From the IMG/VR virus record IMGVR_UViG_3300049739_000046, positions 1 to 49,153 of that record: a DNA stretch of 49,153 nucleotides; one strand, given 5' to 3'. This document shows, one piece after another, positions 635 to 17,239 of the stretch. The notes beneath the pieces are model-generated. The model worked only from the letters and a program-made list of their open reading frames with translations, ran no database searches and was not told the origin of the DNA. The translations under genes were made by a program, and so were the position numbers. This stretch comes from a virus. Numbering within the stretch: the first letter of the stretch is position 1; the number at the start of each line of letters is the position of its first letter.

Positions 635-1447
635 TTATCCGATCATATCCATAGGGGGAATTGCATACTTACTGAGAACTTCGCTTTCGATTTTCTCAAT
701 TTCTGCTAGTGCGTCTGTATATAACTCTCTACCGTTAAGCGTGATGCCGCCAGGTAACTGAACGTTGTTGTACTTAATTAAGTTCTGACCCCACTGCTTC
801 TTTAACAAAGCTGTGGCATACCGTTTAACAAACAAATCATTGTACATCTCAGTAGCATCATTGGGGTCAATCATGCGATGACATTCAATAAGGATATTAG
901 ATTCTTTTTTCAAGAAATCCTTATCTAGATCCATATAAAGACGATCACGACGTGCTGTGAATCTAAACTGCTGGAAACTTCCATTGTTTAGAACCATATC
1001 TAGAGTTTCTAGATATTGCTTAGTCATATAATAGTTGAGGATATCAAGTGATCCAAATGCATAGAGATCATTCAGGAACATTTGATACTCAATACCAAAT
1101 AGATTTGAACGGATTGAGTTACTGACAAGACCAAATACTTTACTAATACCAGTTACATGGGATGGTATAGGTATATAATTTGTAGTCTCTTTCCAAGTTA
1201 CAGTATCGGCCCCATCTGTTTTGGTTGTGGATACACTAGCTGCAAACCTAGTTTTATCGTCTTCAGTTAATTCGTGATATAAAAAAGCACGCTCCATACC
1301 GTTGTAACAGTTCTCTTGAAAAAACTGAACGGTATCATCAATTACATTATTTACCTGTTCGTCATCAACATTAACCTGCAATACAGGTTCACCCAATTGC
1401 CTCTTGCAATATGTGATGAGATCAGCTCTTGAGTTTGGAGATGCCAT
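635..1447 (-). CDS. gp13: Neck protein gp13
   Basis: A 270-residue protein starting MASPNSRADLITYCKRQLG, followed by QVNVDDEQVNNVIDDTVQFF, the typical N-terminus of gp13 neck proteins of marine T4-like phages. T4 gp13 has 309 residues and with gp14 forms the neck that caps the head. An upstream TTG at 1456 keeps the frame open but would only add MCV, so the ATG at 1447 is preferred. A late-promoter-like box CCTAAATA lies 26 bases upstream at 1473-1480, so this gene can start its own transcript. gp14 follows after one spacer base. The call is firm because the sequence pattern and the gene order agree. Confidence 0.92.
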   Translation of the reverse strand: MASPNSRADLITYCKRQLGEPVLQVNVDDEQVNNVIDDTVQFFQENCYNGMERAFLYHELTEDDKTRFAASVSTTKTDGADTVTWKETTNYIPIPSHVTGISKVFGLVSNSIRSNLFGIEYQMFLNDLYAFGSLDILNYYMTKQYLETLDMVLNNGSFQQFRFTARRDRLYMDLDKDFLKKESNILIECHRMIDPNDATEMYNDLFVKRYATALLKKQWGQNLIKYNNVQLPGGITLNGRELYTDALAEIEKIESEVLSKYAIPPMDMIG

Positions 1448-1454
1448 TACACAC

Positions 1455-1484
1455 AAAAAATCCCTTCGTTCCTATTTAGGAAGG
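1455..1484 (-). promoter_or_regulatory. Late promoter box in a terminator-like hairpin upstream of gp13
   Basis: On the minus strand the box CCTAAATA (1473-1480) resembles the T4 late promoter TATAAATA. The TAA in the box (1478-1476) is also the stop codon of the upstream 71-residue gene. The same stretch can form a 5-bp stem CCTTC/GAAGG, with the box in the loop, followed by GATTTTTT, so it also looks like a weak terminator. Promoter use is inferred from position, 26 bases before gp13. Confidence 0.55.
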
Positions 1485-1724: not shown

Positions 1725-1732
1725 TATTTATC
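1725..1732 (-). promoter_or_regulatory. Late promoter box GATAAATA
   Basis: GATAAATA on the minus strand, 34 bases before the ATG at 1691. It overlaps the TGA stop of the upstream oxygenase gene (TGATAAATA). It resembles the T4 late core TATAAATA; use as a promoter is inferred. Confidence 0.5.
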
Positions 1733-2372
1733 ATGTTGGAGAAACCCTATATGAATACTTATCATCAACAATTAATGAAGGCATGAAATTCATAGAGATA
1801 GAAACTCTACCATCTTTTCTGTTATCAGAATAACCATGGGTAAGATTAGATTGCCATAGCATCACCTCTCCTTCAGAAGGGTGCATGATAACATCACAGT
1901 TATATTTCCCTAGCTTATTCATGTCTGGTAGCAATGAAATTGATGGTGCTTGTGAATGAGTAGAACCATCTGGATGTCTGAAAAATAATGGTGCATGTCC
2001 TTCTTCATGACAAACATAATATGTTCCAGATATAAATGCATTAGTATGAAAATGTGGATACTGACTTCCACCAGTATCACATAAATTTAACCAGCTATCA
2101 GTAATAATCATTCTCTCAGGAAGATCATATCCCAAATCATCAGCAACAAAAGAAGTACATTGATCTTCTAACCACTGTTTAAATTCTGACATTTCTTTTC
2201 TGTGTAGAAATGATCTACCAGATGTATTGTCGTAATGATGTAGGTTGTTATCCATTGCATTAGTGATCATATTTTCACCTGTCATCATGTCGATAATTTC
2301 TTTCTTTACAACATCACTATTTGGGTAAAGTTCTCTACCAATAACTTTAGGAAAAATATCAATTAAATTCAT
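1731..2372 (-). CDS. 2OG-Fe(II) oxygenase-like protein
   Basis: A 213-residue protein starting at the ATG at 2372, which overlaps the TAA stop of the gene before it (TAATG). An in-frame upstream start exists at 2411 but lies inside that gene. Around residues 104-115 is YPHFHTNAFISGTYYV, a His-containing strand typical of 2-oxoglutarate/Fe(II) dioxygenases, and around residues 175-195 is SNLTHGYSDNRKDGRVSISM, giving the distal His and the Arg that would bind 2-oxoglutarate. This fits the phage and marine bacterial 2OG-Fe(II) oxygenase group (TIGR02466-like). Such enzymes hydroxylate or demethylate proteins, nucleic acids or small molecules; the substrate is unknown. It is translationally coupled to a U32-like/methyltransferase fusion, which hints at a joint modification step. 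Confidence 0.82.
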   Translation of the reverse strand: MNLIDIFPKVIGRELYPNSDVVKKEIIDMMTGENMITNAMDNNLHHYDNTSGRSFLHRKEMSEFKQWLEDQCTSFVADDLGYDLPERMIITDSWLNLCDTGGSQYPHFHTNAFISGTYYVCHEEGHAPLFFRHPDGSTHSQAPSISLLPDMNKLGKYNCDVIMHPSEGEVMLWQSNLTHGYSDNRKDGRVSISMNFMPSLIVDDKYSYRVSPT

Positions 2373-4066
2373 TATTTTTTTAATACAAAAATGTTTATTC
2401 CATTCCACCAAGAATTTGTATCTTCAATTTCACCAGTAAGAATACTTCTTTCATACAAAACTGTAATCTTATTCTCTTCAATAAAATCTTTTGTCGATGT
2501 TAATACACCATCAAGGTTTGCATCATCAACCACTAATATAAATTCATTCTCTGTATATTGAAGAATGTGATTTAAACAACTTCTCTGTACATTCAATTCA
2601 TGATCTGCGTCATAAAAAATAGTATTTACTTTTTTATCTAAATTTTCTTCTGTAGCTTCACGGATATCACCATTTAAAATTGCAATGTTGCTGTTGTCTG
2701 TCCATACAGATTTTACATTCTCAATGAAAGTTTCAATAGATCCTTCTTCATCATCCCATGGAATGTCTTCTCTGATTGGTTTGATATCTACATCACGCCA
2801 ATGATCTGCTGCATAAGCAGTAATATCATTACCTTGAATTGCTGCACAGAATGTGCTGCCATTAAACACACCAATTTCTAGATACTTTGTATCCTCGTAA
2901 GAACATAGATTGTTGAGGAAGTGCCTTACCTTATCAGAAGTTAGACCCTGAATGTCGTGATCAAATTTTGACTTCCCTTCAATAGCTTTATCAATAGAGT
3001 CTAAACATCTGGTTACAAATGGGTGACATACTCTCTCTTGTTTTTTAAGATGTGCTTCAACAACTGTATCGCAATAATTACATTCCCAGCAATCAAACTT
3101 ACAATTTTTAATTTTATCTCTCCATATATCAATGGGACGATCTTTCATATTAAGATCTTCCATGTATACATTCATACGTGGGAAGAGAATTTCATCACCA
3201 TCATTCCATTTTTTAATGATGTCCATAGACTCCATTAATCTGATAGCACTTTCTCTACCATGCATTTTAAATACATCAATACCTAGATCAAGAAACTCTT
3301 GCCAGTCTTCTCTCCATGGCGGAATGTTTGCTGCTTTAAGAGATGCTGATGATTCTGTTACATCCCAAGTAGAACAAGATACTCTACTGATTTCAGAATT
3401 AAAATATTGAGGACTATCATCTCTTGTGGCATTGTATTGATAATGCTCTGGCATAATAGGACAACCACCCCAGCAATTTTCATTAGCTAGCAATGATAGT
3501 TTTACTGGTTTATCAATAGATGCACAATATTCTTTTGCTTCGATAACTCTATTGAGAGCATCTTTATCTCTCATTAAATCTCTATCAAGATTTACATAGT
3601 GAAATCCTGCTCTAGCACAAGCAACAATTTCATTTGCTTTTGTGACTTCTCTAAGGATTGTGTTTTTGATAAACAGTTCAGGAAATTCTCTTTGAATTTG
3701 TCCTGAAGAAACCCATGATGTATGAGGTAGAGTTACAATACGAACACCCTTATCATACAAAGGTTTAAAATTTTCTATCCACAGATCTAGATTTTTTTGA
3801 TCTGGTCTAATCCACATGTTATTAAATGTGGCAGACAAAGGAATACCTGTCTCTTGAGAAATAAACAATGCATTTCTTGTAGTTCCACTAACAGGATCAA
3901 CTACAAAAATATCACCCATCGCATCCTGATTAAAAGGAGGAATACGACAGGTAAAATATAGATCGTAAATTAAATGTTTATGCTCAATGAGGAATGGTAT
4001 AAAAGTCTCCTCAGCAAATTTTTTATTGATCTTCGGGTTGATCGGCAGACTGAAGACGCTTGTCAT
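2372..4066 (-). CDS. U32-like domain fused to class I SAM methyltransferase
   Basis: A 564-residue, two-part protein. The N-terminal part (about 1-335) resembles the TIM-barrel U32 'peptidase' family: YDLYFTCRIPPFNQDAMGD near the start, FHYVNLDRDLMRD, then ANENCWGGCPIMPEHY near residues 192-207, and a Cys-rich stretch CKFDCWECNYC near residues 320-332. U32 relatives such as RlhA, TrhP and UbiU/UbiV are Fe-S proteins acting in hydroxylation rather than proteolysis. The C-terminal part (about 360-564) is methyltransferase-like, with KYLEIGVFNGSTF as the SAM-binding motif near residue 391 and IFYDADH and ILVVDDANLDG further on. The ATG at 4066 is chosen over a GTG at 4078. It overlaps the upstream gene by 44 bases. 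The target is unknown; the U32 assignment is less sure than the methyltransferase. Confidence 0.72.
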   Translation of the reverse strand: MTSVFSLPINPKINKKFAEETFIPFLIEHKHLIYDLYFTCRIPPFNQDAMGDIFVVDPVSGTTRNALFISQETGIPLSATFNNMWIRPDQKNLDLWIENFKPLYDKGVRIVTLPHTSWVSSGQIQREFPELFIKNTILREVTKANEIVACARAGFHYVNLDRDLMRDKDALNRVIEAKEYCASIDKPVKLSLLANENCWGGCPIMPEHYQYNATRDDSPQYFNSEISRVSCSTWDVTESSASLKAANIPPWREDWQEFLDLGIDVFKMHGRESAIRLMESMDIIKKWNDGDEILFPRMNVYMEDLNMKDRPIDIWRDKIKNCKFDCWECNYCDTVVEAHLKKQERVCHPFVTRCLDSIDKAIEGKSKFDHDIQGLTSDKVRHFLNNLCSYEDTKYLEIGVFNGSTFCAAIQGNDITAYAADHWRDVDIKPIREDIPWDDEEGSIETFIENVKSVWTDNSNIAILNGDIREATEENLDKKVNTIFYDADHELNVQRSCLNHILQYTENEFILVVDDANLDGVLTSTKDFIEENKITVLYERSILTGEIEDTNSWWNGINIFVLKK

Positions 4067-4799
4067 TGAGTTGGTCACGGATTTGATCTAGGAGAGGGAT
4101 GTTAAGGTTGTGTTCTACACCATGGAATGTAGGAACTTGAACGTCAGGAGATTCTGCATATGCTTGAAAATACTTCTCTGTTCTTCCTTGAATCTTATCC
4201 ATAGAGATCTTCATCAAACAAGCATACTGAGATGCAACATCAAGAATACCAACTTGATCTTCTTCTTTCATCATAGCAATAGAATCCATGTTGCCAATAC
4301 CGACTCTACCATTTGCCATAATATCTAAAGCAGCTTGTTTACCAAGTCTTGCAATCCAATACTTTCTTTCATCTTCTTCATCCCATTCAACTGAATCCAA
4401 TAGATCTTGTTTTGTTAGACCTTTGTCTTTAATATAATCTATGAAAACTTGAAGTTCATATTCTGCTTGACCCTTTCTTCTATTCCACATTTCTTTATCG
4501 AGTTCAGCAAACTCAACTTCAGCTGCAGCAAATTCAATATCAAACTCATCTCCATCTTCTGCTTGGAGTTTCTCTAGTAAAGCTTTATCACGACGCAAAC
4601 GAATATCTCCCTTCTTTTCATCGAGGAGCATTTTTTCATATTGATGTGATCGATTCTCGATCTCTAACAAAACTTGTTTTAGTTGTCGATCTTCTGTGAC
4701 ATGTGATTTGATCACATAGTCTAAAATTTGATTCTTCGACATACCAAGAGATACTCTTACAGCAATATCTCTAATTTCTTTATCTGTAATTACACCCAT
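4023..4799 (-). CDS. Helical protein of unknown function
   Basis: A 258-residue protein, MGVITDKEIRDIAVRVSLGM at the start. It looks mostly alpha-helical and highly charged, with long helices in residues 45-115 (EIENRSHQYEKMLLDEKKGD and following). There is no signal peptide or membrane segment, and I recognise no catalytic motif. The first 25 residues could form a small helix-turn-helix-like element (DKEIRDIAVRVSLGMSKNQI), but that is a guess. It lies between a 254-residue unknown protein and the U32-like fusion and overlaps the latter by 44 bases. No clear ribosome binding site is visible upstream. A possible late box AATAAATA lies 82 bases upstream at 4881-4888 inside the previous gene. 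Confidence 0.75.
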   Translation of the reverse strand: MGVITDKEIRDIAVRVSLGMSKNQILDYVIKSHVTEDRQLKQVLLEIENRSHQYEKMLLDEKKGDIRLRRDKALLEKLQAEDGDEFDIEFAAAEVEFAELDKEMWNRRKGQAEYELQVFIDYIKDKGLTKQDLLDSVEWDEEDERKYWIARLGKQAALDIMANGRVGIGNMDSIAMMKEEDQVGILDVASQYACLMKISMDKIQGRTEKYFQAYAESPDVQVPTFHGVEHNLNIPLLDQIRDQLNDKRLQSADQPEDQ

Positions 4800-4819: not shown

Positions 4820-5584
4820 TTAGAACTTGATACCAGGAATTACCTCATCTCTAATTAAAACACCCTGTTCGTTTTGGGTGTATTTATTTTCTTCTTTTGC
4901 CTGTTGTTCTGGCATTGGAAGACCAAGGTAGTTCTCATATAACCTATTTATCTTCCTAATTGTATCGCAATCTGAGAACTCTTTTTTAATTTCTGAAGAC
5001 TTAATGTAGAGTGCTTTTACATTTCTGTTGTAAGCATTTCTTTTTTCTTGAATTTTTGTTTTTAAATCAACTGGAGCTACACCCTTTGCTACTGACAATT
5101 CTCTGATGATGTAATCATTATTATTATCTACATCGTCATTTTGATATTCCCATGTCTTTTTCTCTAGTGCAGAAACACCTTCGTCTAAAGCTAAGAACCT
5201 TTGTTCAAAAGTTTGTTCTACAATTAACTTTGCTAGGAACTTCATAGTTCTTAGAATAGTATCATATCTCTTTTGTGTGACAGGAACTGCTACTTTAGGT
5301 CCTTCAGGTGCCATATCAGCATAAGATAGATTATCAAAATCTGCCTCATTTTTTAAATCATCAGCAGGAACTTTAATGGTAGAACGAATATCACCAAGAC
5401 TTCTCATACCAAATACTGCCATCTCTTTATCCATCTCGACAAATCTGTCTGATAAAGAATTTATACCATTTACGTCTTCAGAATCCAACGAGAAAACATA
5501 CCAATCAAGAACAGAGTTGATTGGTTGGTATGTAAGTAATTTTGTTAGATCGGGGAGTTTACCAACGAAATATCTTTTTGTCAT
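4820..5584 (-). CDS. Unknown helical protein between fibre and modification genes
   Basis: A 254-residue protein beginning MTKRYFVGKLPDLTKLLTYQ. A good ribosome binding site, CAGGAGTATAAGC, precedes the ATG and lies across the end of the upstream 381-residue gene, so the two are coupled. Most of the chain is predicted by eye to be helical and charged (for example QTFEQRFLALDEGVSALEKK and DLKTKIQEKRNAYNRNVKAL). There are no transmembrane segments. I do not recognise the family with confidence. Its place just after the adhesin gene would suit a fibre assembly factor or a minor virion protein, but nothing in the sequence proves this. Confidence 0.75.
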   Translation of the reverse strand: MTKRYFVGKLPDLTKLLTYQPINSVLDWYVFSLDSEDVNGINSLSDRFVEMDKEMAVFGMRSLGDIRSTIKVPADDLKNEADFDNLSYADMAPEGPKVAVPVTQKRYDTILRTMKFLAKLIVEQTFEQRFLALDEGVSALEKKTWEYQNDDVDNNNDYIIRELSVAKGVAPVDLKTKIQEKRNAYNRNVKALYIKSSEIKKEFSDCDTIRKINRLYENYLGLPMPEQQAKEENKYTQNEQGVLIRDEVIPGIKF

Positions 5585-5586
5585 GC

Positions 5587-6732
5587 TTATACTCCTGTGT
5601 AACCGCTAGCTAGTGTACCATATTCAATAGCAGCACCCGATGCTCTACCAGGTGTTCCCTGAGAGTTGAGACTGCCATTTAATCCAAATGAGTGTGTGGA
5701 GAAACTTACTTGACCACCAGTATTGTTCTGACCACCATCATACATACCGTTCATAAATCCATGTGTCATTCCCGTATGGAATGTTTCTTCACCAGTAGTT
5801 GCTGGTTTACTAACAGATCCTAGGTTAGAACCAGTAGTGTCATCTCTTCTTGAAAGTGCAGCGTTGGTTTGGTAACCACCTGCAGTGTTCCAATAAGAGA
5901 AATTAAGACGTGAGTTCCAAGTCTTGTTAGTTCCATCAGTGCCAGGAGCAGAACTCCAACCAGACCACGATTGAGTTGACCAGTCAAAGCTGTATCCATT
6001 ACCACCTTGCTTATACCAACCTTTAGTTTCGCCATAACCACATGCAGGGTTATCACCACCAGTAGATCCGCCGCCACTAACAGTTGATACACTGTCATTA
6101 GTTAAGTCGTATCTGTCTGGGTTGTTGTTATTGTTTCCACAAACATATGCATACTTAAAGTCTCTCTTCATAACAGAAGTTCTGTTTCTTGAAGTCTGCA
6201 TCGATGTTGCAGCACCAGCATTGGACTCAGTGACCATGCTGAAACTAGAAACATAGTTACCAGTATTGTTCCAACCGTTTGCTGTGCAGAAAACATATGC
6301 TCTCATAGCAGAGTTTTGAGCACCTGCTGTGTATGCGTCAGACTGATCAATTCTGTCGCCAATGTTAGCGTTACTAAACGTAGCATGTGTACAACGGTTG
6401 ATGTTTCTCCATGCAGCACCACCTCGGTAACCTGCTGCTGGATATCCTCTAGTAATATTAAAACCTTCGGCAAACTCAACAATGTTTTCCCAATAAGCGT
6501 TAGTACCATCTGATTTCAGTGTGGCTCCAACGGTGCTTGAATCACCAGCACTTGCAGGAAATTGCTCTGGTAAAGTTGAAAATGGCGCACCATTTACAAG
6601 CAAACTATTACTGCCAATATCAATATTACCACCGAAGGTACATGAACCATCCGTATTCAACGAAATGTTGGGATTGGTTGAACTACCTGCGGCGGTATAT
6701 TTAAGTTGATCTACTCTTAATTCTGATGCCAT
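5587..6732 (-). CDS. Probable beta-propeller tail adhesin
   Basis: A 381-residue protein. The N-terminus MASELRVDQLKYTAAGSSTN is the common start of short fibre proteins in marine T4-like phages, followed by a small beta domain ending DSSTVGATLKSDGTNAYW. From about residue 95 on, the chain is rich in Gly, Tyr, Asn and Trp, with blade-like units (for example DFKYAYVCGNNNNNPDRYDL, NGYSFDWSTQSWSGW and GFMNGMYDGGQNNTGGQVSF) separated by serine-rich turns, like kelch-type beta-propellers of phage fibres. It has its own ribosome binding site (GTAGGAGAT) and a late-promoter-like TCTAAATA 26 bases upstream, whose TAA is the stop codon of the giant fibre gene. A receptor-binding role is inferred from fold style and position. 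Confidence 0.72.
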   Translation of the reverse strand: MASELRVDQLKYTAAGSSTNPNISLNTDGSCTFGGNIDIGSNSLLVNGAPFSTLPEQFPASAGDSSTVGATLKSDGTNAYWENIVEFAEGFNITRGYPAAGYRGGAAWRNINRCTHATFSNANIGDRIDQSDAYTAGAQNSAMRAYVFCTANGWNNTGNYVSSFSMVTESNAGAATSMQTSRNRTSVMKRDFKYAYVCGNNNNNPDRYDLTNDSVSTVSGGGSTGGDNPACGYGETKGWYKQGGNGYSFDWSTQSWSGWSSAPGTDGTNKTWNSRLNFSYWNTAGGYQTNAALSRRDDTTGSNLGSVSKPATTGEETFHTGMTHGFMNGMYDGGQNNTGGQVSFSTHSFGLNGSLNSQGTPGRASGAAIEYGTLASGYTGV

Positions 6733-6757: not shown

Positions 6758-6765
6758 TATTTAGA
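6758..6765 (-). promoter_or_regulatory. Late promoter box TCTAAATA
   Basis: TCTAAATA on the minus strand, 26 bases before the ATG of the 381-residue protein. The TAA within it (6763-6761) is the stop codon of the 3,492-residue gene. It resembles the T4 late core TATAAATA. Confidence 0.55.
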
Positions 6766-9700
6766 CGATGTTCCAGCTACCGCCATCAGCAACTGTGATC
6801 ACAATATTGTTATTTATAGTGATAGGACCAAAACTACCACAGTTTGTTCCATTAGGAACAGTAATGTTCTCAGCAACAACTTGACTGTTTGCTTTGAAGA
6901 TACCGTAGGAGTCAATCCATTGCCTTACGCCGTTAGCGTAAAGAACGCTGGTGTTTGCTTGGTTAACGAAAGTTTGACCTTCGATGTTTGTAGATCCAAG
7001 GACATGTAAGTCGTATGTAGGATCTTGTTTCTTAACACCAACTTTGGACAATCTATAGATGTCATTGCCGTTAGAAGCTTCTGTCCATCTAGATGTTACA
7101 AACTCTTGGTTGTTCTGGAAGAACTGACCATTCAAGTTAATATCACCTTGAACATTTAATTGATAGTTTCTACTCTGGTTATTAGTTGGGTCGGTTCCAG
7201 AAGTTGCATTAGTGTTAATTGCAATTCTATTGTCACCCTTAACCAAGAATGCAGGAGTTCCATTCCAAGATTGTCCACCACCAGCAGTTGATGCAGTAAT
7301 TTCAAATGCATCACTATGTCCAATCTGGTTACCAATTCTGAAGTTTTTCTGACTGGAGGAACCTAAGAAGTACATACCAGCACCAGAGTTATCATTAGCG
7401 GAATCTAACGTAACATAATTTCTAAATCTGGATGTACCATTAACATCTAACTTAAAGCTAGAACTTGGAGTTGAAGTTGAAATACCAACTGATCCATTAT
7501 AATCAATGGTCATTGCCTCAGTTCCAACAGTTAGTGGAACCTCGTTACCACTTCTGCCAGGATCAACCATGAACGCAATGCGTCCATAAGAAGACCAAAG
7601 TGCCATTCTCTCACTGCCTCTATGGTCATAAAGTAGACCACCTCTTACAGTATCGTTATAAGTGAGTGCAAGACCAAACTGAGAATCAGCACCACTAGAA
7701 CCATCTACCCAGTTACCATTAAACTGAGCAATGTCCATTCCATGAACAGTACCATAACTGTTAAAGTTAGAAGGTCTAATTCTCAACTTAACGTATGACT
7801 CACCAGCACGGTTAGTAAATACAGTCTCGCCAATACCGATCTTATTCTCAGAAGAGTCAACGAATAATGTATAGTTATCAACGTTAAGATCAGCAGTTAA
7901 TGTTGTTGTATTGTTAACAGTTGCTGTTCCACTAACAGTGAGGTTAGAACCTGCACCAGTTAGGACAAGCGAACCAGTCATGGTATCACCAGTCTTCAGA
8001 ACGTTGAGTGATGCAGCACCAGTTAGAGATGCGGTAATTGTTCCAGCGGAGAAGTTACCAGCAGAATCACGTTGTACTGCATAACTACCAAGGTTAGCAC
8101 TACTAAATTGAATGTTACCTTCGTTCCATGCTTTCTGACCATTGATAGTAAATGCATCAGCATTTAGAACTGTCAATGCTAAAGTACCAGATCCTAAACT
8201 AGCATTACCACCAGCTGCTTCAAATTTAGCAGTATAGTGATCATCTGGAGTTGCCGATACTAACTGAGAAGATCTAAAGTAAATTGCAGGACTAGATGAT
8301 TGACCATCAGTTCTTCCAAGTCTTAGTTCACCAGATCCAGAGTTATTAACAATCTTACCAACGTCTACTGTATTACCATCTTCTAGAGTAAAGTCATCAA
8401 ATGGTTGTCTGTTAGATGCACTACCAGCAGTAAGAGCACCAACAAAGTTACCAGAGTTGAGTCTACCAATTAGAATCGTAAAGTCGTTAAAGTTATCTGC
8501 TGTATCATCGTTAGTTACAACACTATCAATAACAAAACTACCAACAGCTTGTGCGTTGGCGTTATACAAGTTGATTGGATTACCTGCAGCAAATACTCCC
8601 GTTGCAGATGTGTCGAGGATAACTCCAGAGAAGTAAATTCTGAACTTAGGATCACCAAGGAATCCTTTAACACTTACGTTATCTCTAAAGTTAGTTGCAC
8701 TAATGAATCTAGGAAGTCTATTATCAGATAAAGTTCCTTCATTAATGTTTAGAGCATTTTGATACCAAGTGCCCTGTCTATTGTCAAGTCTGTCAGCGTC
8801 AAGACCAGAGTCAAGACCATCATTCAATGATGTCCATACCTTCGCCCATGTACCGAAAGATCCAACACCAGTTCCAGATCCACGGAGATACATGTTATCA
8901 TTATCCGTGAATGCAAGTTGTCTTACACCACCAAATCCAGCATCGAAACCAGAACCACCATTTCTGAAGGTTACAGTCATGTTTCTGGTGCCACCATCAG
9001 TTAGTCCATTAGCACTATTGAAGATTGTGTTAGCAACAATACCAGAACTGAAGTTGTTAGGAGCAGGAGAAGAGGACGGGTTGTTAGTACCTGTAAGAAC
9101 ACGAATCGTGTTACCTGCTGTACCAGAAATTGCGATGTTGTAAGTTCCAGCTAATCTATCAGAAGATAGAGTACCAGCACTCATGTTACTAGCATTTAGA
9201 TAGAATGTACCTTGTACACCGTCTAGTAAGTCAGCATCAAGTCCACTATCTGCACCAGTCTTAAGTTCAACAGATCCATTTCCTGCCTGACCAAGATTGA
9301 ATTGTGATTTCTTATATCTAGAAACACCAATTGTACCGTAAAGGTCAGCAGAAATTGTAAGATCAGTAACTCTCTGAACGTCAATAGATACGTTTGCATA
9401 CTGTCTGTTGACCGTAGAAACTTTTGATTCTAGTACAAGAGAGGATCCAGCACCAATGACACCAGGAGCAGAGGTTACAGTAAAGTCTGAACTATATCCA
9501 GTACCACCATCAGTAACAGTAATTTCTGTTACAACGTTACCAGCAACAACAATATTAACCTTGAGTCCAGTTCCTGTTCCACCTGTTAGCGAAACATCAA
9601 AGTATTGACCGTTGGTGTAACCAGAACCAGCGTTAGAAATAATAACATCATCAACAAATCCACCTTGAGTGAATGTTGATTCAAATGATAGAGGAGATGC

Positions 9701-12700
9701 ACCACGCTCAAACTCAATAATTGTTCCGAGAGGAATTGTTGCATTGACTGGGTTGTTTAGAGAGATCGTAGTTAGACCTGCTGCGGTAATAACACCAGTA
9801 ATGTTTGTATTAGTCTGAATACCACTTACAGTATTCTTAACTTCATGACCAATAAGAACATCAGAGTTTGTAGTAAAGATCATCTGAGATGATCCTGTAG
9901 TACACTGAGATGCCAATCTTGCAAAGTACCTGCTTTCTGCACCTTTGAGTGACTGCATTGCTAGTGCAAAGCTAGAATCACCTCTTAAGAATGTGAAGGA
10001 GTTTGCAGATCCACCAACAGCAAGTCTGTCTGTTTCAATAACACCAGATGTAATATCGGAAGCAGCAATCTGATTGGAAGATAGTGATACCCAGTTGTTA
10101 GCATCGAAGGAAGATGTATTTACAACTCTAGTAATGTTAACTGTATTAGCAGTAGGTGATGTACTATCATCAACAGTATCAGTATCTTCTATCTTAATGT
10201 TGTTGACGATATCACCATATATTCTGCTCTCAATTAGAGCATTACCTTGTGCTTGTGTACCAGCTCCAGTAGGAGCAGCAAATGTAATATTAGGAGCAGT
10301 AGTATATCCTTTACCACCTCGGAATCCACCAAAGTCATTAATAGTAACAGTAACAACTTGACCATTAGCAATAGTACAAGTAGCAGCTGCAGAAACTGCA
10401 CCAGCTTCTGGGTTACCACCAGCAAATGTAACTACAGGAGCAACAGTATATCCAGAACCACCGTTACTAATATTAATTTGGAATACAACACCTTTTCTAT
10501 ATTCAGTTGATTGAATGCGTCCAGTAGTTAAACTACCAGTAAGGATGTCACCGATGGTGAATGTTAAAGCAGGATCTGGGTTAAATCCAAGGAACAGACT
10601 ATCATTATCATTGTTTAGAATGAATGATGTTGATGTATCCTGTTGAATTGCAATGTCACCAGCAAGTGCTCCTTCTAGTGCAGTTCTTTCTGTTTGGTTT
10701 GCAACAGTGAAGACACTGAATGGTCTGAGTGCTGGAATCTGATCAATAGAGATCTTACCAGAATCAGTAAGTTCAACCAATGCTCTAGGAACAGCGTTCG
10801 TAGAATATGGTTTGTTGATGTAAGGTCCTAAAGCATTAGTGATATAATCTTTAACTGCCTTTTGTGTAGGTAGTTTAGAATCACTAGAGTTAGCACCACC
10901 AAGTGTGTTGGATGCGTCAAAACCAGTAACAACAACGTCACCACCTTTCAGTTTCAAGAATTCAACTTCAGAGATCGTAACCGTACCAGTGAAGGTAATG
11001 TTACCAGTTCTGTTTTCGATTCTAGCGAAAGTACCAACCTTAAAGTCACCAAGTTCATCAGTACCAGAAACATATACACGACCGTAGTTTTCAGATACCT
11101 GTTCGTATGCTTCGACTTTAGTACCACCGTTCTCAGGAAGAGCTAGGTAGTTAGTTCCTGAACCCGCAAATTCCCACGTATGAGAAGAAGAGTTAACAAT
11201 CGATGGTCTGTGTAAGTTAATTGTTTTACCAGACAGAATACTGGTAGATACTGCCTGACCAGTTGCTATATCTGTAAGATCCATGGCACCACCTGTGCCA
11301 TCATCAATAGTTAATTGTGCAGAGAAAGGAGGACCAACTGTAACTCCAGCTACAACATCAACAAAGTATTCAATATCTACATTAGTGTTTCTATATCCAT
11401 CAATCTTAACAACATAATGCTCTAATGGTTCTCTACCAAGTCCACTAAGTGTTAGGATAGTTCTACCAGTAGGAGTAGAAGAAACATTTGAAATCGTTGC
11501 AATATCAAATGCATATGGGTCCTTACGGAAACCTATACCTCTTAATGCAAATGTACCAAAGTTGGTAGCAGAGTTAGTGATTGAGCAGTAACCACCAGAT
11601 TCAGCAAGAACACCATCAGCACAGAAGATAACGAAGACAGAAACTAACTGAGTATAACCATCGTTGATAACCTTATATCCTGTACCACCAAAAGATACAA
11701 TCGTGAATGCAGATGCAACCATCGACTTACCCTGATTGGGGAAGGATGCTGTTCCGTCTAACTCAAGACCAGGGAATGGGCAGTTGGGTTGCTTAACCTT
11801 GGCACCATCAACCTCAGCACCGCCACCACCTAGGAAGGAGATAACAGATGCGTTCTGGGTGTATGGAGATGCCTCGATAATTGGATAGTCATCGTAATCA
11901 CCACGAATTGCTAGTCTGTTGTTATTAGCATCAGAAACAAAGTTATCTGGATACGAAATAATTTGTGAAGTATCATATAGAGAATTGCTAGTTCTAGATG
12001 TAGCACCAGAAAGAACTGTTCCATCTAAGATATCTTCAAAAAGATCCATAGATGTATTGATGGAAGAAGCAACGTTAGAACATTGTGAAGTTTGTCCCGT
12101 GCTGTATACAAGTACAGAGTTGTTAGTTGTTCTAACAAATGTATGTGCAGATTGTGGTAAATGCTTGAGGCAATTAGTTGCAGCAGTTACGAATGTATGT
12201 GCAGATTGTGAAATCTGAGTAATTGATCCTGCAGCACCACTTACAAAAGTATGTGCTTCACCAGAAGCAGCACCACCAGCTCCTACGTTAACTGTAACAG
12301 TTCCAGTTTGTCTCTCGATACCATTAGCTAATGCACTTACAAAAGCATGTGTGCCTGTGTAAGAGGAAAGACCAGTATTAATTTCAAAAGTATCGGTAGT
12401 TACATTACTAATTTGTACCCATTTGTTACTCAACTTATCATAGTTGGCACGAGGATATGTTTTGTTTACTGAATTTCCATCCAGATCACAAGTAAAAGTT
12501 AGACTATCGTTAGCAATTTTTACATAATCTCCATTTGCAAAATTATGTCCAGCACTTGTTATAACTAACTTTCCACTAGATGCTGTGTAGACAGCATTGG
12601 TAGCTGTATGTTGACTAGAAGAAACTGCTGTGATATTTAAAGATGCACCTGAAGCGGGGTCAGATGGTCTTGGATATGTTTCTACAGTTGTATTACCATC

Positions 12701-15700
12701 ACCATTATAGTCACATGTAAATGCTAGAGAATTATCTAGAATTACAATTCCTTTATTAACATCAAGACCATGCTGAGTTCCAAGTTCTAGAACTAATTCA
12801 CCAGTAGATGCATTGTAGGTAGTTCCTGTTTGTGCAGTAAGTAATTTATTTGCAGGAGATACACCTACGTTTAATGTAATAGTTGTATCACTTACACTAT
12901 CGATAGGTATAGATCTCAATGCGTATGGGTCATGACCTGCTCTTGGATATGTTTTAGTAGCAGTATTTCCATCCATCGTACATGTGAACGATAGACTATC
13001 AGTATCAAGTACAACACCTTCACCAATACTAAGTCCATGACCAGTACCAATAGTTAGAACCAGAGCACCTGTAGCAGGATCATAAGTTGCATCACTTGGA
13101 GTCCACTGTTGATCAGGACCAGATACGCCAACATTAATTGTAAATGTATCTGCAGATGTTGATGTTACTGCCAGAGCATTGCCATATGCAGTTTGACCAG
13201 ATTGAGGTAAACTATGCTCAGTGGCATTACCGTCCATTGCACATGTAAATGTGAATGATTCTGGAGAAAGACTAATACTATTACTTGTAGTAACACTATG
13301 ACCTGTCACAGTCATTGTGAAATCACCATTAGCAGGATTATAGGTAGCTGTTGATGGTGTATGCTGTGCTATTGGAGCGCCTGCATTTGGATCTGGAAGA
13401 ATATTCCAATCTTCAAATCTTGGAATAGGTGAAGTTAGTACAGTAGGATTGTAAACAATAATAGTTCCATCTGTTACTGCACTTACAAATGAATGTGATG
13501 AACCAGAAGCAGCTCCTGCATTACCAACGTTACAAGTAACTGTGGTGACACCACCAGAAGATTGAACATTAGTGATGGCATGACTCTTGCCATAATTATC
13601 ATCAGTTTTTAATGGACTTGAGTGTGTTCCAGTAACACTGTTATATGTACATTGGAAGGCAATTGCTTCTTCTTTAAATGCAATTCTATCTCCTACATTA
13701 GGAGCAATGAGAGGATCAGGGAAGATTACCTCTAATGCACCAGTAGAAGCATTGTATGTTGCGTTAGTTGGAGTGAGATCAACATATGATCCATCAGTCC
13801 AGTTACGCATTGCTGCGATAGCATATGTTTTAGCTCTTTGATATGCAAAGATAGTTTCTGCTCTTTGTGCTTCTGGAATGCCAGTTAAAGCAGTTTGTGT
13901 AAAGTAAGATTCGGCAGCTATAACAATATTCTCATTACCACCAAATGTTAAATCTTTTGCTAGATTACTTAACGTAATACCAAGATCTCTTTTACATTTT
14001 CTTTCGTTTGTGTTATCAAGTGAGAATAATGGAAACTGACCTAATGTATCACGTAATGCTTGATCAGCAATTAGATACTTATTTCTTTCAATTAAGTATG
14101 CAGCATCCAGATAAGTTCCATTTTGATTCTTGGTAATAAGATCAACCCAAAGGAATGATAAAGTATCAATTGCAGATTTAACATCAGCACAAGCTGGAGT
14201 ACCCGCAGTTGCTGTGATGACTGTATCATCAAAGTATCTTGTTACAGAAGAATATACAGGAGAATAAATTGGATCTGATGGAGTACCGTCACCAGTTCTC
14301 CAGTTTCTCATTGCAAGGATACAAAGTTCTCGTGCATATTCAATCGCACGGAAGTTTTGAACAATTTCATCCTTGATGTATGCAATATCACCACCAAGAA
14401 TATACTTCTTAGCTGCTTCAATAATGTTGAAGTTTGAACCAAATTCTAAATCTCTTACTAGAGCATTAACAAAGTGAATAACGTCTTGGCGGCATTGCTC
14501 ATCACCGTCACTTCCTGTGTTATCTCCACTAGTTGGGGAACTATAAGAAGGGTAAGTTTTTTGACCAGCATCACAGGATAGTAGAATGTCTGCTAACTTA
14601 ATGGTATCATCTTCTACTAAAGTTGATAAAGCAGAATCTACTGTGATAGTTGCATAACCTGTTATGATATTATCGTAACTAAAGTTAGTAATATTTACAG
14701 TTGTATTTTCAAATTTAACTGTACCACCAGAAACATAAGTATGAGTTACTGGAGTCTGACCTAAGAATACTTTAAATGTATCTCCACCACCAGTGATTTC
14801 AGATACCTGATAATAGTCTTTAGCAAATTGTCTATTGATTCTTCCTACAACTTCATCTGCAATAAACTCTCTGTTATTACGTAGGAATACACAAGCATCT
14901 TGGAATCTTCTTTCTACAGGAGTAGATAGAGGGAATGTGTTTGGTGAGTTTAGTAGTGATAGAGTAATTACTTTTGAAAAACTCTTAACAGTTGCAAATT
15001 GACCAGGATCTAAGTTAGCATCTGTGATAGATGGAACTTTTTTAGGAATTACAAATCTTCTGCAGCGACCATCTGCATCTTCTAAGACTTTATAAATTCT
15101 TTGCTTACCATTTAGAAGTGATAAGTCAGGGTTTGAAGTAGGAAGATTTTCAATTAAAATTTCCTGACCTTCTTTAAACTCGTGAGTATTTGTTCTACCA
15201 ACTAGTGCGTTAGTATAGAAGACAACACCACCAAGATCTTCTGCATTACCAAACTGAGCATTTTGGAAACCACCTGTTGTAATACTTGGATCTCCTTGTA
15301 AAGAGAAATCAAGTCTAGAAATAGGTAGAGTTGTGGTGTAATCTTCATCTACTGCTACAACCTCACCTTCTGCTCGAATTGATTTAATAGCAGTAGTGTC
15401 AATATTTTCAGTTTGTGCAGTAGCTTGATTGATTGCATATGTACCACCAACACCAGTTGCATCCCATGTGGGAGCATTTAGAATTGGGAAGAATGTTACA
15501 TCCCAAATATTACTTGCAGATTGCGTAGAATCAATCGCAGAAACTTCATAGAATCCTGTAAAAGCATTACCTGTGGATGGTGTTCCTACTAATTGTACTA
15601 CTGTACCACCAGGAATAGTTCCAGTTGGATCTTGTGTAAATCGTAAAGTGTTTGGTCCCTGTTGACCAGTAATAGCAAGGTTGATAGCACTACCTGCACC

Positions 15701-17239
15701 AGCAGATGTGATATATGAGAATTGCTCACCTTCAACAAAGGAACCAGATTGTAATTGGACATCAATTGTACCATTTACATATGCACTAGCACCTATTGTA
15801 GTTGCAAATTTAACGTCAAATATTTTTGCTCTAGAACCAGTGTTAACACCTTTTACAATTAAACCAGATACTAATGTAGCAAGACCTGTATTGTTTTGGA
15901 AAGAAACACGGAACTGCTGTGGTCCAAAAATTTGATGACCAACTGGGAATGATGTACCAAAATCACCATTAGCTTCTCTGTCAACGATAACTCTTTGCTT
16001 ATCGTCAAAGACCATAGCAAAATCCCAAGTAGCAACTGCATCGCCATTGGAATCAATTTGGTCACGATAAGTAACACCAATTACATAGTTCTTATCACCA
16101 AACTTAACAATGTGTTTGCCAGGATTAGCAGGACGAATGATGACCAAACGTAGGTTATCACCAACGATGGAAGAATCGGGTGGTAGTGAAATTGGGTTAT
16201 CTTCTACATAATCACCACCAGATACAATAATAGTTTCTTTAACACCAGGCGTTTTCCATGCCTCTTGTGCTGCTTTTTTAATTGTTCTAACAGGGTTTAC
16301 AGCAGATCGACCATCATTAAGGTCAGAACCAATCTGTTGTGAAACGTAAATACGACCACCAACGTCATTCGTTGCTAGGTTGAGGACGTATTCTGTAGTA
16401 GCAATCTTGTCTGATCTATCACCCAATAGAGGTGTAATAGATCTTGGGAATACACCAGAGTCTCCAGTATCATTATATCTAAACTCATTTGGATCGTTGA
16501 CGCGGAAACCAATGTGTTTGAAGTCAACATCACCGTTTTTGATGATACCATCAACGTGTTCTGGAGCTTCAGAACCAGTTTGACCAGTATTTAATGCTTG
16601 ATAAACATTAGCTCCAAAATATCTGTAAGAATCTTTTTGTAGAATAACATTAGCAGACCATAAAATGCCTGTGTTATTCATGTAATTCTTCAGGTTTGGA
16701 CCCCTGAAGTTAGCATCTGGAGTAATAAAGTTGTCAATATCTAGGTTTAGAATTCTTGCCGTATCAGAAATGATAGACGTAGATGTTCTAATAGCACCAT
16801 TAATATCAAGTTCATAATCAACAGTATCAAGGAAAGCAGTAGCAGTAGCACCAGAACCACCACCTTCAGAAATAGTAACAATTGGAGCAATGGTATATCC
16901 GCTGCCAGGATTATTAACAGCAATTGTAGTTACTTTGCCATTAAAAGTAAATGCGGAAGCAAGAGCTTGTATACCACCAGCAGCATTAGGAGGTCCGATA
17001 GTTACTGTTGGGTTTACAGTAAATCCACTACCTGCAGTGTCGAGAACGATATTATTAACTCTTTGCCCAGTTCGGTTAATACCGACACGGGGTAATTGCG
17101 TAGTAGAGTCTAACTCAGTTCGCAAGACTTCTTTTTCGTCTGCTCCTGTGCCAACTCTAATCGTGGCTTCATTATCACCGATAAGTTTAGGATTTACGCC
17201 CCTAATCTTTTCTTTATCGGAATTAATATGAAAACTCAT
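6761..17239 (-). CDS. Giant multi-domain tail fibre protein (3,492 residues)
   Basis: One unbroken frame of 3,492 codons. Order of parts: an N-terminal region with GSGY-type repeats (residues about 60-130); a pectin-lyase-like beta-helix opening IYVSQQIGSDLNDGRSAVNP near residue 296; a long insertion holding two helical modules (about residues 910-1155) and five or so repeats of about 75 residues with a TYN...FTCxxDG pattern (about 1155-1635); a return to beta-helix (YTQLVSVFVIFCADG); further GSGY repeats; several fibre segments of the LDADLLDGVQGTFYLNA type; and a C-terminal tip PNGTNCGSFGPITINNNIVI followed by a VADGGSW ending. No S74 chaperone domain is seen. This is a virion fibre by sequence style and place. 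A late box GCTAAATA lies 36 bases upstream. Receptor binding is inferred. Confidence 0.85.
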   Translation of the reverse strand: MSFHINSDKEKIRGVNPKLIGDNEATIRVGTGADEKEVLRTELDSTTQLPRVGINRTGQRVNNIVLDTAGSGFTVNPTVTIGPPNAAGGIQALASAFTFNGKVTTIAVNNPGSGYTIAPIVTISEGGGSGATATAFLDTVDYELDINGAIRTSTSIISDTARILNLDIDNFITPDANFRGPNLKNYMNNTGILWSANVILQKDSYRYFGANVYQALNTGQTGSEAPEHVDGIIKNGDVDFKHIGFRVNDPNEFRYNDTGDSGVFPRSITPLLGDRSDKIATTEYVLNLATNDVGGRIYVSQQIGSDLNDGRSAVNPVRTIKKAAQEAWKTPGVKETIIVSGGDYVEDNPISLPPDSSIVGDNLRLVIIRPANPGKHIVKFGDKNYVIGVTYRDQIDSNGDAVATWDFAMVFDDKQRVIVDREANGDFGTSFPVGHQIFGPQQFRVSFQNNTGLATLVSGLIVKGVNTGSRAKIFDVKFATTIGASAYVNGTIDVQLQSGSFVEGEQFSYITSAGAGSAINLAITGQQGPNTLRFTQDPTGTIPGGTVVQLVGTPSTGNAFTGFYEVSAIDSTQSASNIWDVTFFPILNAPTWDATGVGGTYAINQATAQTENIDTTAIKSIRAEGEVVAVDEDYTTTLPISRLDFSLQGDPSITTGGFQNAQFGNAEDLGGVVFYTNALVGRTNTHEFKEGQEILIENLPTSNPDLSLLNGKQRIYKVLEDADGRCRRFVIPKKVPSITDANLDPGQFATVKSFSKVITLSLLNSPNTFPLSTPVERRFQDACVFLRNNREFIADEVVGRINRQFAKDYYQVSEITGGGDTFKVFLGQTPVTHTYVSGGTVKFENTTVNITNFSYDNIITGYATITVDSALSTLVEDDTIKLADILLSCDAGQKTYPSYSSPTSGDNTGSDGDEQCRQDVIHFVNALVRDLEFGSNFNIIEAAKKYILGGDIAYIKDEIVQNFRAIEYARELCILAMRNWRTGDGTPSDPIYSPVYSSVTRYFDDTVITATAGTPACADVKSAIDTLSFLWVDLITKNQNGTYLDAAYLIERNKYLIADQALRDTLGQFPLFSLDNTNERKCKRDLGITLSNLAKDLTFGGNENIVIAAESYFTQTALTGIPEAQRAETIFAYQRAKTYAIAAMRNWTDGSYVDLTPTNATYNASTGALEVIFPDPLIAPNVGDRIAFKEEAIAFQCTYNSVTGTHSSPLKTDDNYGKSHAITNVQSSGGVTTVTCNVGNAGAASGSSHSFVSAVTDGTIIVYNPTVLTSPIPRFEDWNILPDPNAGAPIAQHTPSTATYNPANGDFTMTVTGHSVTTSNSISLSPESFTFTCAMDGNATEHSLPQSGQTAYGNALAVTSTSADTFTINVGVSGPDQQWTPSDATYDPATGALVLTIGTGHGLSIGEGVVLDTDSLSFTCTMDGNTATKTYPRAGHDPYALRSIPIDSVSDTTITLNVGVSPANKLLTAQTGTTYNASTGELVLELGTQHGLDVNKGIVILDNSLAFTCDYNGDGNTTVETYPRPSDPASGASLNITAVSSSQHTATNAVYTASSGKLVITSAGHNFANGDYVKIANDSLTFTCDLDGNSVNKTYPRANYDKLSNKWVQISNVTTDTFEINTGLSSYTGTHAFVSALANGIERQTGTVTVNVGAGGAASGEAHTFVSGAAGSITQISQSAHTFVTAATNCLKHLPQSAHTFVRTTNNSVLVYSTGQTSQCSNVASSINTSMDLFEDILDGTVLSGATSRTSNSLYDTSQIISYPDNFVSDANNNRLAIRGDYDDYPIIEASPYTQNASVISFLGGGGAEVDGAKVKQPNCPFPGLELDGTASFPNQGKSMVASAFTIVSFGGTGYKVINDGYTQLVSVFVIFCADGVLAESGGYCSITNSATNFGTFALRGIGFRKDPYAFDIATISNVSSTPTGRTILTLSGLGREPLEHYVVKIDGYRNTNVDIEYFVDVVAGVTVGPPFSAQLTIDDGTGGAMDLTDIATGQAVSTSILSGKTINLHRPSIVNSSSHTWEFAGSGTNYLALPENGGTKVEAYEQVSENYGRVYVSGTDELGDFKVGTFARIENRTGNITFTGTVTISEVEFLKLKGGDVVVTGFDASNTLGGANSSDSKLPTQKAVKDYITNALGPYINKPYSTNAVPRALVELTDSGKISIDQIPALRPFSVFTVANQTERTALEGALAGDIAIQQDTSTSFILNNDNDSLFLGFNPDPALTFTIGDILTGSLTTGRIQSTEYRKGVVFQINISNGGSGYTVAPVVTFAGGNPEAGAVSAAATCTIANGQVVTVTINDFGGFRGGKGYTTAPNITFAAPTGAGTQAQGNALIESRIYGDIVNNIKIEDTDTVDDSTSPTANTVNITRVVNTSSFDANNWVSLSSNQIAASDITSGVIETDRLAVGGSANSFTFLRGDSSFALAMQSLKGAESRYFARLASQCTTGSSQMIFTTNSDVLIGHEVKNTVSGIQTNTNITGVITAAGLTTISLNNPVNATIPLGTIIEFERGASPLSFESTFTQGGFVDDVIISNAGSGYTNGQYFDVSLTGGTGTGLKVNIVVAGNVVTEITVTDGGTGYSSDFTVTSAPGVIGAGSSLVLESKVSTVNRQYANVSIDVQRVTDLTISADLYGTIGVSRYKKSQFNLGQAGNGSVELKTGADSGLDADLLDGVQGTFYLNASNMSAGTLSSDRLAGTYNIAISGTAGNTIRVLTGTNNPSSSPAPNNFSSGIVANTIFNSANGLTDGGTRNMTVTFRNGGSGFDAGFGGVRQLAFTDNDNMYLRGSGTGVGSFGTWAKVWTSLNDGLDSGLDADRLDNRQGTWYQNALNINEGTLSDNRLPRFISATNFRDNVSVKGFLGDPKFRIYFSGVILDTSATGVFAAGNPINLYNANAQAVGSFVIDSVVTNDDTADNFNDFTILIGRLNSGNFVGALTAGSASNRQPFDDFTLEDGNTVDVGKIVNNSGSGELRLGRTDGQSSSPAIYFRSSQLVSATPDDHYTAKFEAAGGNASLGSGTLALTVLNADAFTINGQKAWNEGNIQFSSANLGSYAVQRDSAGNFSAGTITASLTGAASLNVLKTGDTMTGSLVLTGAGSNLTVSGTATVNNTTTLTADLNVDNYTLFVDSSENKIGIGETVFTNRAGESYVKLRIRPSNFNSYGTVHGMDIAQFNGNWVDGSSGADSQFGLALTYNDTVRGGLLYDHRGSERMALWSSYGRIAFMVDPGRSGNEVPLTVGTEAMTIDYNGSVGISTSTPSSSFKLDVNGTSRFRNYVTLDSANDNSGAGMYFLGSSSQKNFRIGNQIGHSDAFEITASTAGGGQSWNGTPAFLVKGDNRIAINTNATSGTDPTNNQSRNYQLNVQGDINLNGQFFQNNQEFVTSRWTEASNGNDIYRLSKVGVKKQDPTYDLHVLGSTNIEGQTFVNQANTSVLYANGVRQWIDSYGIFKANSQVVAENITVPNGTNCGSFGPITINNNIVITVADGGSWNIV
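9425..10470 (-). repeat. GSGY-type protein repeats in the giant fibre
   Basis: The coding strand specifies at least four GSGY-type units here, such as NAGSGYTNGQYFDVSLTGG and SNGGSGYTVAPVVTFAGG. Each is a short beta unit with a GxGYT turn, a PxV strand and a Gly-rich GxGAxA stretch. The same type occurs in four other genes of the window. Confidence 0.7.
12138..12210 (-). repeat. 19-base direct repeat within the fibre gene
   Basis: AATGTATGTGCAGATTGTG occurs on the plus strand at 12138-12156 and 12192-12210, 54 bases apart, which keeps the reading frame. On the coding strand it gives SAHTF-type units (QSAHTFV twice). It looks like a recent in-frame duplication at the worn end of the 75-residue repeats. 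Confidence 0.8.
12330..13777 (-). repeat. About five 75-residue tandem protein repeats
   Basis: The encoded segment repeats a unit with TYNASTGxLVL at its start, GHGLSxGxxV in the middle, then SLxFTCxxDGNxxxKTYPR, and a closing TITLNVG-like strand. Five copies are clear, for example DATYDPATGALVLTIGTGHG and GTTYNASTGELVLELGTQHG. The copies have diverged, so they are old. They lengthen the fibre and sit inside an interrupted beta-helix. Confidence 0.75.
13780..14520 (-). repeat. Two helical FGGN/AMRNW modules in the giant fibre
   Basis: Two copies (about 14260-14520 and 13780-14110) of a helical unit with the pattern RD...L...DLxFGGNxxIxxAAxxY, then E or Q YARxxA and AMRNW. Examples are VRDLEFGSNFNIIEAAKKY and AKDLTFGGNENIVIAAESY. 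The same unit occurs twice in the gene at the gp7 position. Confidence 0.75.

Follow-up and report, generated by a model that had tools for sequence, protein, structure and literature searches.

A U32-like barrel fused to a methyltransferase and coupled to exchangeable oxidising enzymes in cyanophage tail gene clusters

The fusion gene and its tail-type neighbours

The window, that is, the whole stretch of viral DNA analysed here (49,153 nt), contained on its minus strand a fusion gene (2372..4066; ATG at 4066, TAA at 2374-2372) encoding a protein of 564 aa with a U32-like barrel followed by a methyltransferase domain; an alternative GTG start at 4078 would give a product of 568 aa. The 564-residue protein described in the earlier note was present, including the quoted ANENCWGGCPIMPEHY, CKFDCWECNYC and KYLEIGVFNGSTF. 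The next gene on the same strand (1731..2372; ATG at 2372-2370, stop at 1731) encoded a 2OG-Fe(II) oxygenase of 213 aa, and the two genes were coupled by a TAATG stop/start overlap (2370..2374, minus strand), in which the oxygenase ATG had one base in common with the TAA of the fusion gene. The oxygenase matched PF13759 (56.8 bits versus 27, E 3.1e-15), TIGR02466 (65.6 versus 62.5) and phrog_81, and residues H120, H122, H192 and R202, in the numbering of a 226-aa ORF, were kept in at least 95% of 107 oxygenase homologues, as expected of Fe and 2OG ligands.

Upstream of the fusion gene, PHROGs matches identified phrog_1409 (4023..4799; T4-GC 353 position), which overlapped the fusion gene, phrog_1604 (4820..5584; T4-GC 352 position), which like phrog_1409 has no assigned function, and phrog_1417 (5587..6732; T4-GC 351 position), a "sericin-like" fibre-type protein that is a candidate substrate; the downstream end of the cassette was formed by the head-tail adaptor phrog_211 (635..1456), all four being on the minus strand. 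These assignments agreed with the earlier placement of the gene inside a tail gene cluster. In related viruses, positions -1 and -2 were filled by phrog_1604 and phrog_1409 in most loci, and 68 of 81 non-redundant loci had a homologue of phrog_1417 at -3. The same late region of the window also contained three very long minus-strand ORFs at 6761-17239, 23377-31464 and 33398-43672 (3492, 2695 and 3424 aa, respectively).

The whole fusion ORF matched phrog_1458 (E 2.6e-235), a family of unknown function in PHROGs; the homologues were annotated as hypothetical in cyanophage records and as T4-GC 354 in older genomes. A full-length phrog_1458 protein was present in 123 phage records, every one from a phage of Synechococcus or Prochlorococcus, and three viral contig scans, with 80 relatives taken from each, revealed more than 200 viral loci with relatives of the fusion protein, nearly all of them full-length fusions save those ending at a contig edge. 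Thus, the fusion ORF was not a product of chance. Its carriers are ocean and freshwater viruses, many of them known viruses of photosynthetic bacteria. When bacterial and archaeal species genomes were scanned with the phage domain, only two loci were found. One of them (L235) was rejected as a cellular gene, since the tail-type gene clusters around it indicated a phage contig in a Dehalococcoidia bin; the other (L236), on one short contig of a Euryarchaeota genome and 67% identical, was presumed to be a phage contig too. No match to the phage domain was found in a plasmid collection, and a literature search yielded no earlier description of a cyanophage U32/methyltransferase protein.

Domain structure, kinship and conserved residues

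The AlphaFold model of the whole protein, based on an alignment of 74 sequences, had a mean pLDDT of 90.5 and a pTM of 0.84, and the AF2 model of residues 1-345 alone (3032..4066, minus strand) had values of 89.1 and 0.89. The predicted layout consisted of a barrel at about 5-268, a helical tail rich in Cys at 310-343 and a methyltransferase at 378-563, borders close to the split into 1-335 and 355-564 given in the earlier note. In the predicted model the barrel had the strand order of a (beta/alpha)8 fold, with strands near residues 5, 33, 77, 110, 132, 157, 189 and 265.

By sequence, the barrel matched nothing in Pfam, NCBIfam or PDB, and structure and distant profiles were therefore used. 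In a Foldseek search of PDB with the barrel alone, the U32 protein Mk0906 (5D88) was matched with an E-value of 2.4e-6 and TM-scores of 0.49/0.65, the highest TM-scores among the 50 best PDB matches listed. Methylenetetrahydrofolate reductases (MTHFR) were matched with E-values from 3.6e-7. In a search of viral models, the best match outside the near-identical family (61-64% identity) was a protein labelled "Peptidase" of Escherichia phage OLB35 (E 1.7e-9, TM 0.59/0.73). The fold by itself would not decide U32 membership. Because MTHFR structures equal or beat 5D88 in E-value, they favour an alternative in which the barrel is not an oxidase and serves in reductive, demethylating or methyl-transfer chemistry, or in metal binding only; however, their TM-scores (0.41-0.45/0.49-0.55) were lower than those of 5D88, and sequence profiles tied the barrel to U32.

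In profile-profile comparison with hhalign, the phage domain together with one gut relative aligned with seven U32 sequences at E 2e-6, and the phage sequences without the gut relative at E 5.7e-4, both being single-comparison E-values; the alignment covered barrel strands 3-6 in the expected register. Compared singly with the phage profile, TrhP (E 0.0024) and RlhA (E 0.018) gave marginal matches, whereas neither UbiU nor UbiV gave a meaningful alignment. A bridge HMM built from 13 phage rows and the gut row was run against 201 genomes from the phylum to which a Dehalococcoidia bin belongs, and cellular proteins were matched at 1.0e-33, 4.4e-30, 5.7e-30 and 1.3e-15. The protein matched at 1.3e-15 (L261:6012-7208) was itself a Peptidase_U32 protein in Pfam (PF01136, 1.2e-15); the phage protein had no direct match to PF01136, its link running only via this relative. 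Another cellular protein, that of L259, aligned with the phage-only profile at E 1.5e-23 (hhalign). As judged from these sequence comparisons, the bridge via cellular relatives is stronger proof of U32 kinship than the fold or the single-comparison E-values. In addition, K267, G270 and R271 (Lys-x-x-Gly-Arg after the last strand) aligned with KIEGR of TrhP, RlhA and UbiU, though not with UbiV. In a maximum-likelihood tree the phage sequences formed one clade (98/98) next to a cellular group designated A (87/77), with TrhP, RlhA, UbiU and UbiV standing apart from the phage clade, although several long branches leave the deeper order unsure. We read the barrel as a U32-superfamily TIM barrel that belongs, with its cellular relatives, to a separate clade marked by seven Cys, and not as a canonical U32 protein. 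The U32-like TIM barrel of the earlier note was thus borne out by the best TM match and by the sequence links to U32. One record filed as bacteriophage, L083 (MT835898.1), encoded a distant U32-like protein and looked bacterial, with TRAP transporter and nitroreductase-like genes. A radical SAM assignment, suggested by the fit of CKFDCWEC to CX3CX2C, was rejected: the motif is located behind the barrel and not after strand 1, and no significant radical SAM profile was found.

Seven Cys residues (C198, C202, C231, C322, C326, C329 and C332) were invariant in 74 phage sequences. The pair C198-x3-C202 (3461..3475, minus strand) lies after barrel strand 7; C231 (3374..3376, minus strand) was the only one of the seven whose column was shared by the canonical U32 proteins; and C322 to C332 formed a CX3CX2CX2C motif (3071..3103, minus strand), a possible second metal site also present in the cellular relatives. 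The same seven Cys and H208 were found in cellular groups A and B, one group B row departing at one column. In characterised U32 oxidases a [4Fe-4S] cluster is coordinated through a CX6CX15CX3/4C motif or a variant of it (PMC6747719, PMC11574389), and in TrhP an essential Glu, E162, precedes the first Cys (PMC6599085). Hydroxylation in the RlhA/TrhP/UbiU type is further marked by its dependence on prephenate. In the alignment the canonical motif was absent from the phage proteins, with CX3CX28C and CX3CX2CX2C in its place, and the strand matching TrhP E162 had no Glu, an invariant E196 lying two residues before C198. With another Cys set in place of the four-Cys motif, the protein is not a U32 enzyme of the RlhA/TrhP/UbiUV type, the group named for comparison in the earlier note. 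This pattern of residues suggests that the barrel domain probably carries one or two Fe-S clusters; there may perhaps be two metal sites, one of C198, C202 and C231 with H208 and one in the CX3CX2CX2C tail. Since the seven-Cys set is unlike that of every characterised U32 enzyme, it also speaks for a barrel that is not an oxidase.

The C-terminal domain (residues 378-564; 2375..2935, minus strand) is a class I SAM methyltransferase of the Methyltransf_24 family (PF13578; 29.6 bits versus a cut-off of 26.3, E 1.4e-6). In the phage alignment E397, G399 and G403 were invariant and D421, the acidic residue after strand 2, D486, H489, D514 and D515 were at least 90% conserved, leaving the SAM-binding signature intact, as the earlier methyltransferase call had implied. 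The phrog_2675 label "DNA methyltransferase" was rejected as a mere name. In fold search, the whole model resembled many SAM methyltransferases, both those acting on RNA and those acting on small molecules.

These features bear on an alternative in which the target is tRNA or rRNA, the barrel making a 5-hydroxypyrimidine in the manner of TrhP and RlhA and the methyltransferase converting it to the 5-methoxy derivative in the manner of TrmR. Its basis is that TrhP and RlhA are the nearest U32 proteins by single-sequence hhalign, that TrmR is known to methylate after a U32 protein has hydroxylated, that the methyltransferase fold is as much like RNA methyltransferases as like O-methyltransferases, and that an unrelated hydroxylase, TrhO (YceA), is fused to TrmR in Phytophthora and a diatom (PMC6599085). 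On the other side, the Cys required in TrhP are not conserved and no equivalent of its Glu is evident, the fusion has no RNA-binding domain, and its gene sits with tail-type genes.

Exchangeable partner genes and bacterial relatives

Neighbours were counted at 90 loci, non-redundant at 85% identity of the fusion protein, and classed by BLAST single-linkage clusters with Pfam checks on representatives. The next gene encoded a 2OG oxygenase at 45 loci, a flavin-dependent tryptophan halogenase at 19 and a DUF6445 protein at 4, together 68 of 90 (76%), versus 6 of 89 (7%) for such genes at the upstream neighbour. Within +1 to +4, 43 of 82 loci had at least two such genes, and the ORFs of the fusion and next genes overlapped at 74 of 88, start codons having been picked mechanically. 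In about a quarter of the loci the next gene was of another kind (DUF401 membrane protein, neck gene or Nudix). Hence the TAATG-coupled 2OG oxygenase noted earlier holds for the window but not as a general partner, being next in only half of the loci, and the variable next gene led to rejection of a model with a fixed 2OG-oxygenase partner. The fusion enzyme is a constant element, flanked on one side by tail-type genes that are constant too and on the other by oxidising enzymes that can be exchanged.

The partner oxygenases were of several families, namely PF13759, PF13640 and the phrog_274 type; the last, labelled DNA endonuclease V, had a weak match to PF13640 (0.0015) and kept a His-x-Asp...His...Arg set. 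Genes of this type annotated as denV or DNA endonuclease V at L082:13701-14201 and L237:7689-8198 (Syn33_046 and PSSM4_036; phrog_274) look like 2OG oxygenases. The partner halogenase matched PF04820 (E 1.7e-90) with invariant GGGTSGW and K79. At L065:5703-7208 and 37 further loci a tryptophan halogenase lay directly 3′ of the fusion gene with frames overlapping or abutting. A family of about 245 aa (L065:7786-8520; phrog_7084), with no significant Pfam match, was present in the cassette at 53 of the 90 loci; a transporter-like DUF401-type membrane protein adjoined the fusion gene at L135:7611-8564 and about 30 more viral loci; and a 4Fe-4S ferredoxin-type protein (cluster 46), perhaps QueG- or RdhA-like and a possible electron donor, was encoded two genes 3′ of the fusion at L037:8318-9109, L040:8327-9121 and L049 (about 8330-9100). 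In phages S-WAM1 and S-SZBM1, both chosen for their halogenases, a halogenase/2OG run followed the tail genes with no fusion-type gene annotated in the stretch read, indicating that the oxidising run also occurs without the fusion.

Outside viruses, the same seven Cys, H208 and order of barrel then Cys-rich tail were found in bacterial groups A and B (e.g. L259:7952-9193 and L261:6012-7208, respectively), in which, unlike in the phage protein, the barrel was not fused. Group B adjoined fatty-acid-synthesis-type genes, whereas group A, found among genomes of the phylum that includes a bin with the title Dehalococcoidia, lay in RdhA-type operons. All six group A relatives (L258, L259, L260, L277, L278 and L279) adjoined reductive-dehalogenase-type Fe-S proteins, identified by PF13486 in L258 (5.1e-73), by PF13484 in L259 (2e-8) and L260 (1.3e-7), and by similarity in the others; at three of the six loci a Methyltransf_2 O-methyltransferase lay in between. 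Methyltransf_2 enzymes methylate aromatic hydroxyls. As the bacterial Methyltransf_2 differs from the Methyltransf_24 of the phage fusion, an association between this barrel and a methyltransferase appears to have arisen twice, and this recurring pairing is better evidence for a joint reaction path than the fusion by itself. The sequence of hydroxylation and methylation proposed in the earlier note thereby gained in plausibility.

These neighbourhoods weigh on the alternatives in different ways. Reductive dehalogenase-type proteins beside the bacterial relatives are a further point for non-oxidase chemistry, which nevertheless is improbable given the U32 kinship of the barrel. Modification of tRNA or rRNA, one of the targets suggested earlier, is quite unlikely: in phages the fusion is accompanied by halogenases and by 2OG oxygenases of other kinds, the nearest bacterial relatives lie in RdhA/O-methyltransferase operons and not beside RNA genes, and no association of the fusion with RNA genes was found. 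Somewhat better placed, though still unlikely, is a small aromatic compound, be it a metabolite, a quinone or a peptide, that is made or modified in infection as by a mini biosynthetic cluster. Flavin halogenase, 2OG oxygenases, methyltransferase, DUF401 membrane protein and sometimes the cluster 46 protein occur together, the bacterial relatives adjoin RdhA-type proteins and O-methyltransferases of the hydroxy-aromatic type, and quinones are the targets of UbiU/UbiV (PMC6747719). Nevertheless, the neighbourhoods had no core biosynthetic gene, and the upstream tail-type genes were constant while the partners varied, which fits a resident structural substrate better.

Proposed function and comparison with known systems

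In the reading preferred here, to which a probability of roughly 0.4 is given, the cassette tailors a product of the phage, most probably a tail protein, by oxidising one of its aromatic groups and O-methylating it. The fusion would be a tailoring enzyme of two domains whose synthesis probably falls in the late phase of infection. Its barrel would oxidise, most likely hydroxylate, an aromatic ring, by analogy with U32 oxidases, which have been linked to the hydroxylation of rings in quinones and pyrimidines (PMC6747719, PMC6599085), and the fused methyltransferase domain would then O-methylate the product of the barrel. The coupled neighbour, a 2OG oxygenase here and a halogenase, DUF6445 protein or other 2OG enzyme elsewhere, might add a variable further oxidation to the same target. 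The target would most likely be encoded by the phage in the same cluster, a protein of the tail-fibre type being the first candidate, and its modification would change adsorption or stability. A tail protein is favoured because of the location among late tail-type genes, and it is this location that speaks for the virion-protein target named in the earlier note. A more specific version, which is rather doubtful, has the seven-Cys U32 Fe-S clade, the methyltransferase and swappable 2OG enzymes and halogenases decorating the aromatic residues of tail fibres with hydroxy, methoxy or halogen substituents, a form of protein tailoring that would diversify the adsorption surface.

Several points count against these proposals. 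Known U32 oxidases work without O2. Partners of the 2OG oxygenase and halogenase types need O2, and cyanobacterial hosts produce it; the O2-free chemistry of known U32 enzymes is thus a real difficulty for an oxidase barrel in an O2-producing host. The missing canonical four-Cys motif and the lack of an evident equivalent of TrhP E162 in the alignment would count against the U32-oxidase reading, and the richness of late cyanophage genes in 2OG oxygenases anyway counts against the cassette reading, as do the S-WAM1 and S-SZBM1 runs and the quarter of loci in which another kind of gene comes next.

A gene of many T4-like cyanophages labelled hypothetical gains a testable enzyme identity. It would bring the U32 oxidases, with their chemistry not yet settled, into the tail gene clusters of phages and would add a new cysteine architecture to them. 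With TrhP, RlhA, UbiU and UbiV (PF01136) the phage protein shares the TIM barrel, KxxGR (not in UbiV), the register over strands 3-6 and richness in Cys, whereas it differs in having no direct Pfam or NCBIfam match, in its CX3C + C + CX3CX2CX2C set, in the fused methyltransferase and in its tail context. Hydroxylation followed by O-methylation would be common to the fusion and the TrhP/TrmR mo5U34 pathway, but the phage fusion has neither an RNA-binding part nor an RNA context. Its methyltransferase family also differs from that of TrmR. The principle of joining a hydroxylase to a methyltransferase in one protein would be shared with the eukaryotic TrhO-TrmR fusion (PMC6599085).

Cyanophage tryptophan halogenases (prnA-type) and 2OG oxygenases belong to the same enzyme classes that adjoin the fusion in other phages; no description of the fusion together with them was found in the literature search. 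The viral halogenase VirX1 may be set beside the cyanophage halogenases. Earlier explanations of the cyanophage 2OG oxygenases and halogenases have invoked roles in nitrogen metabolism, in the repair of DNA or in the production of antibiotics (PMC3037559, PMC2984593), and tailoring of a tail protein would offer a common explanation for the abundance of both in cyanophage tail regions.
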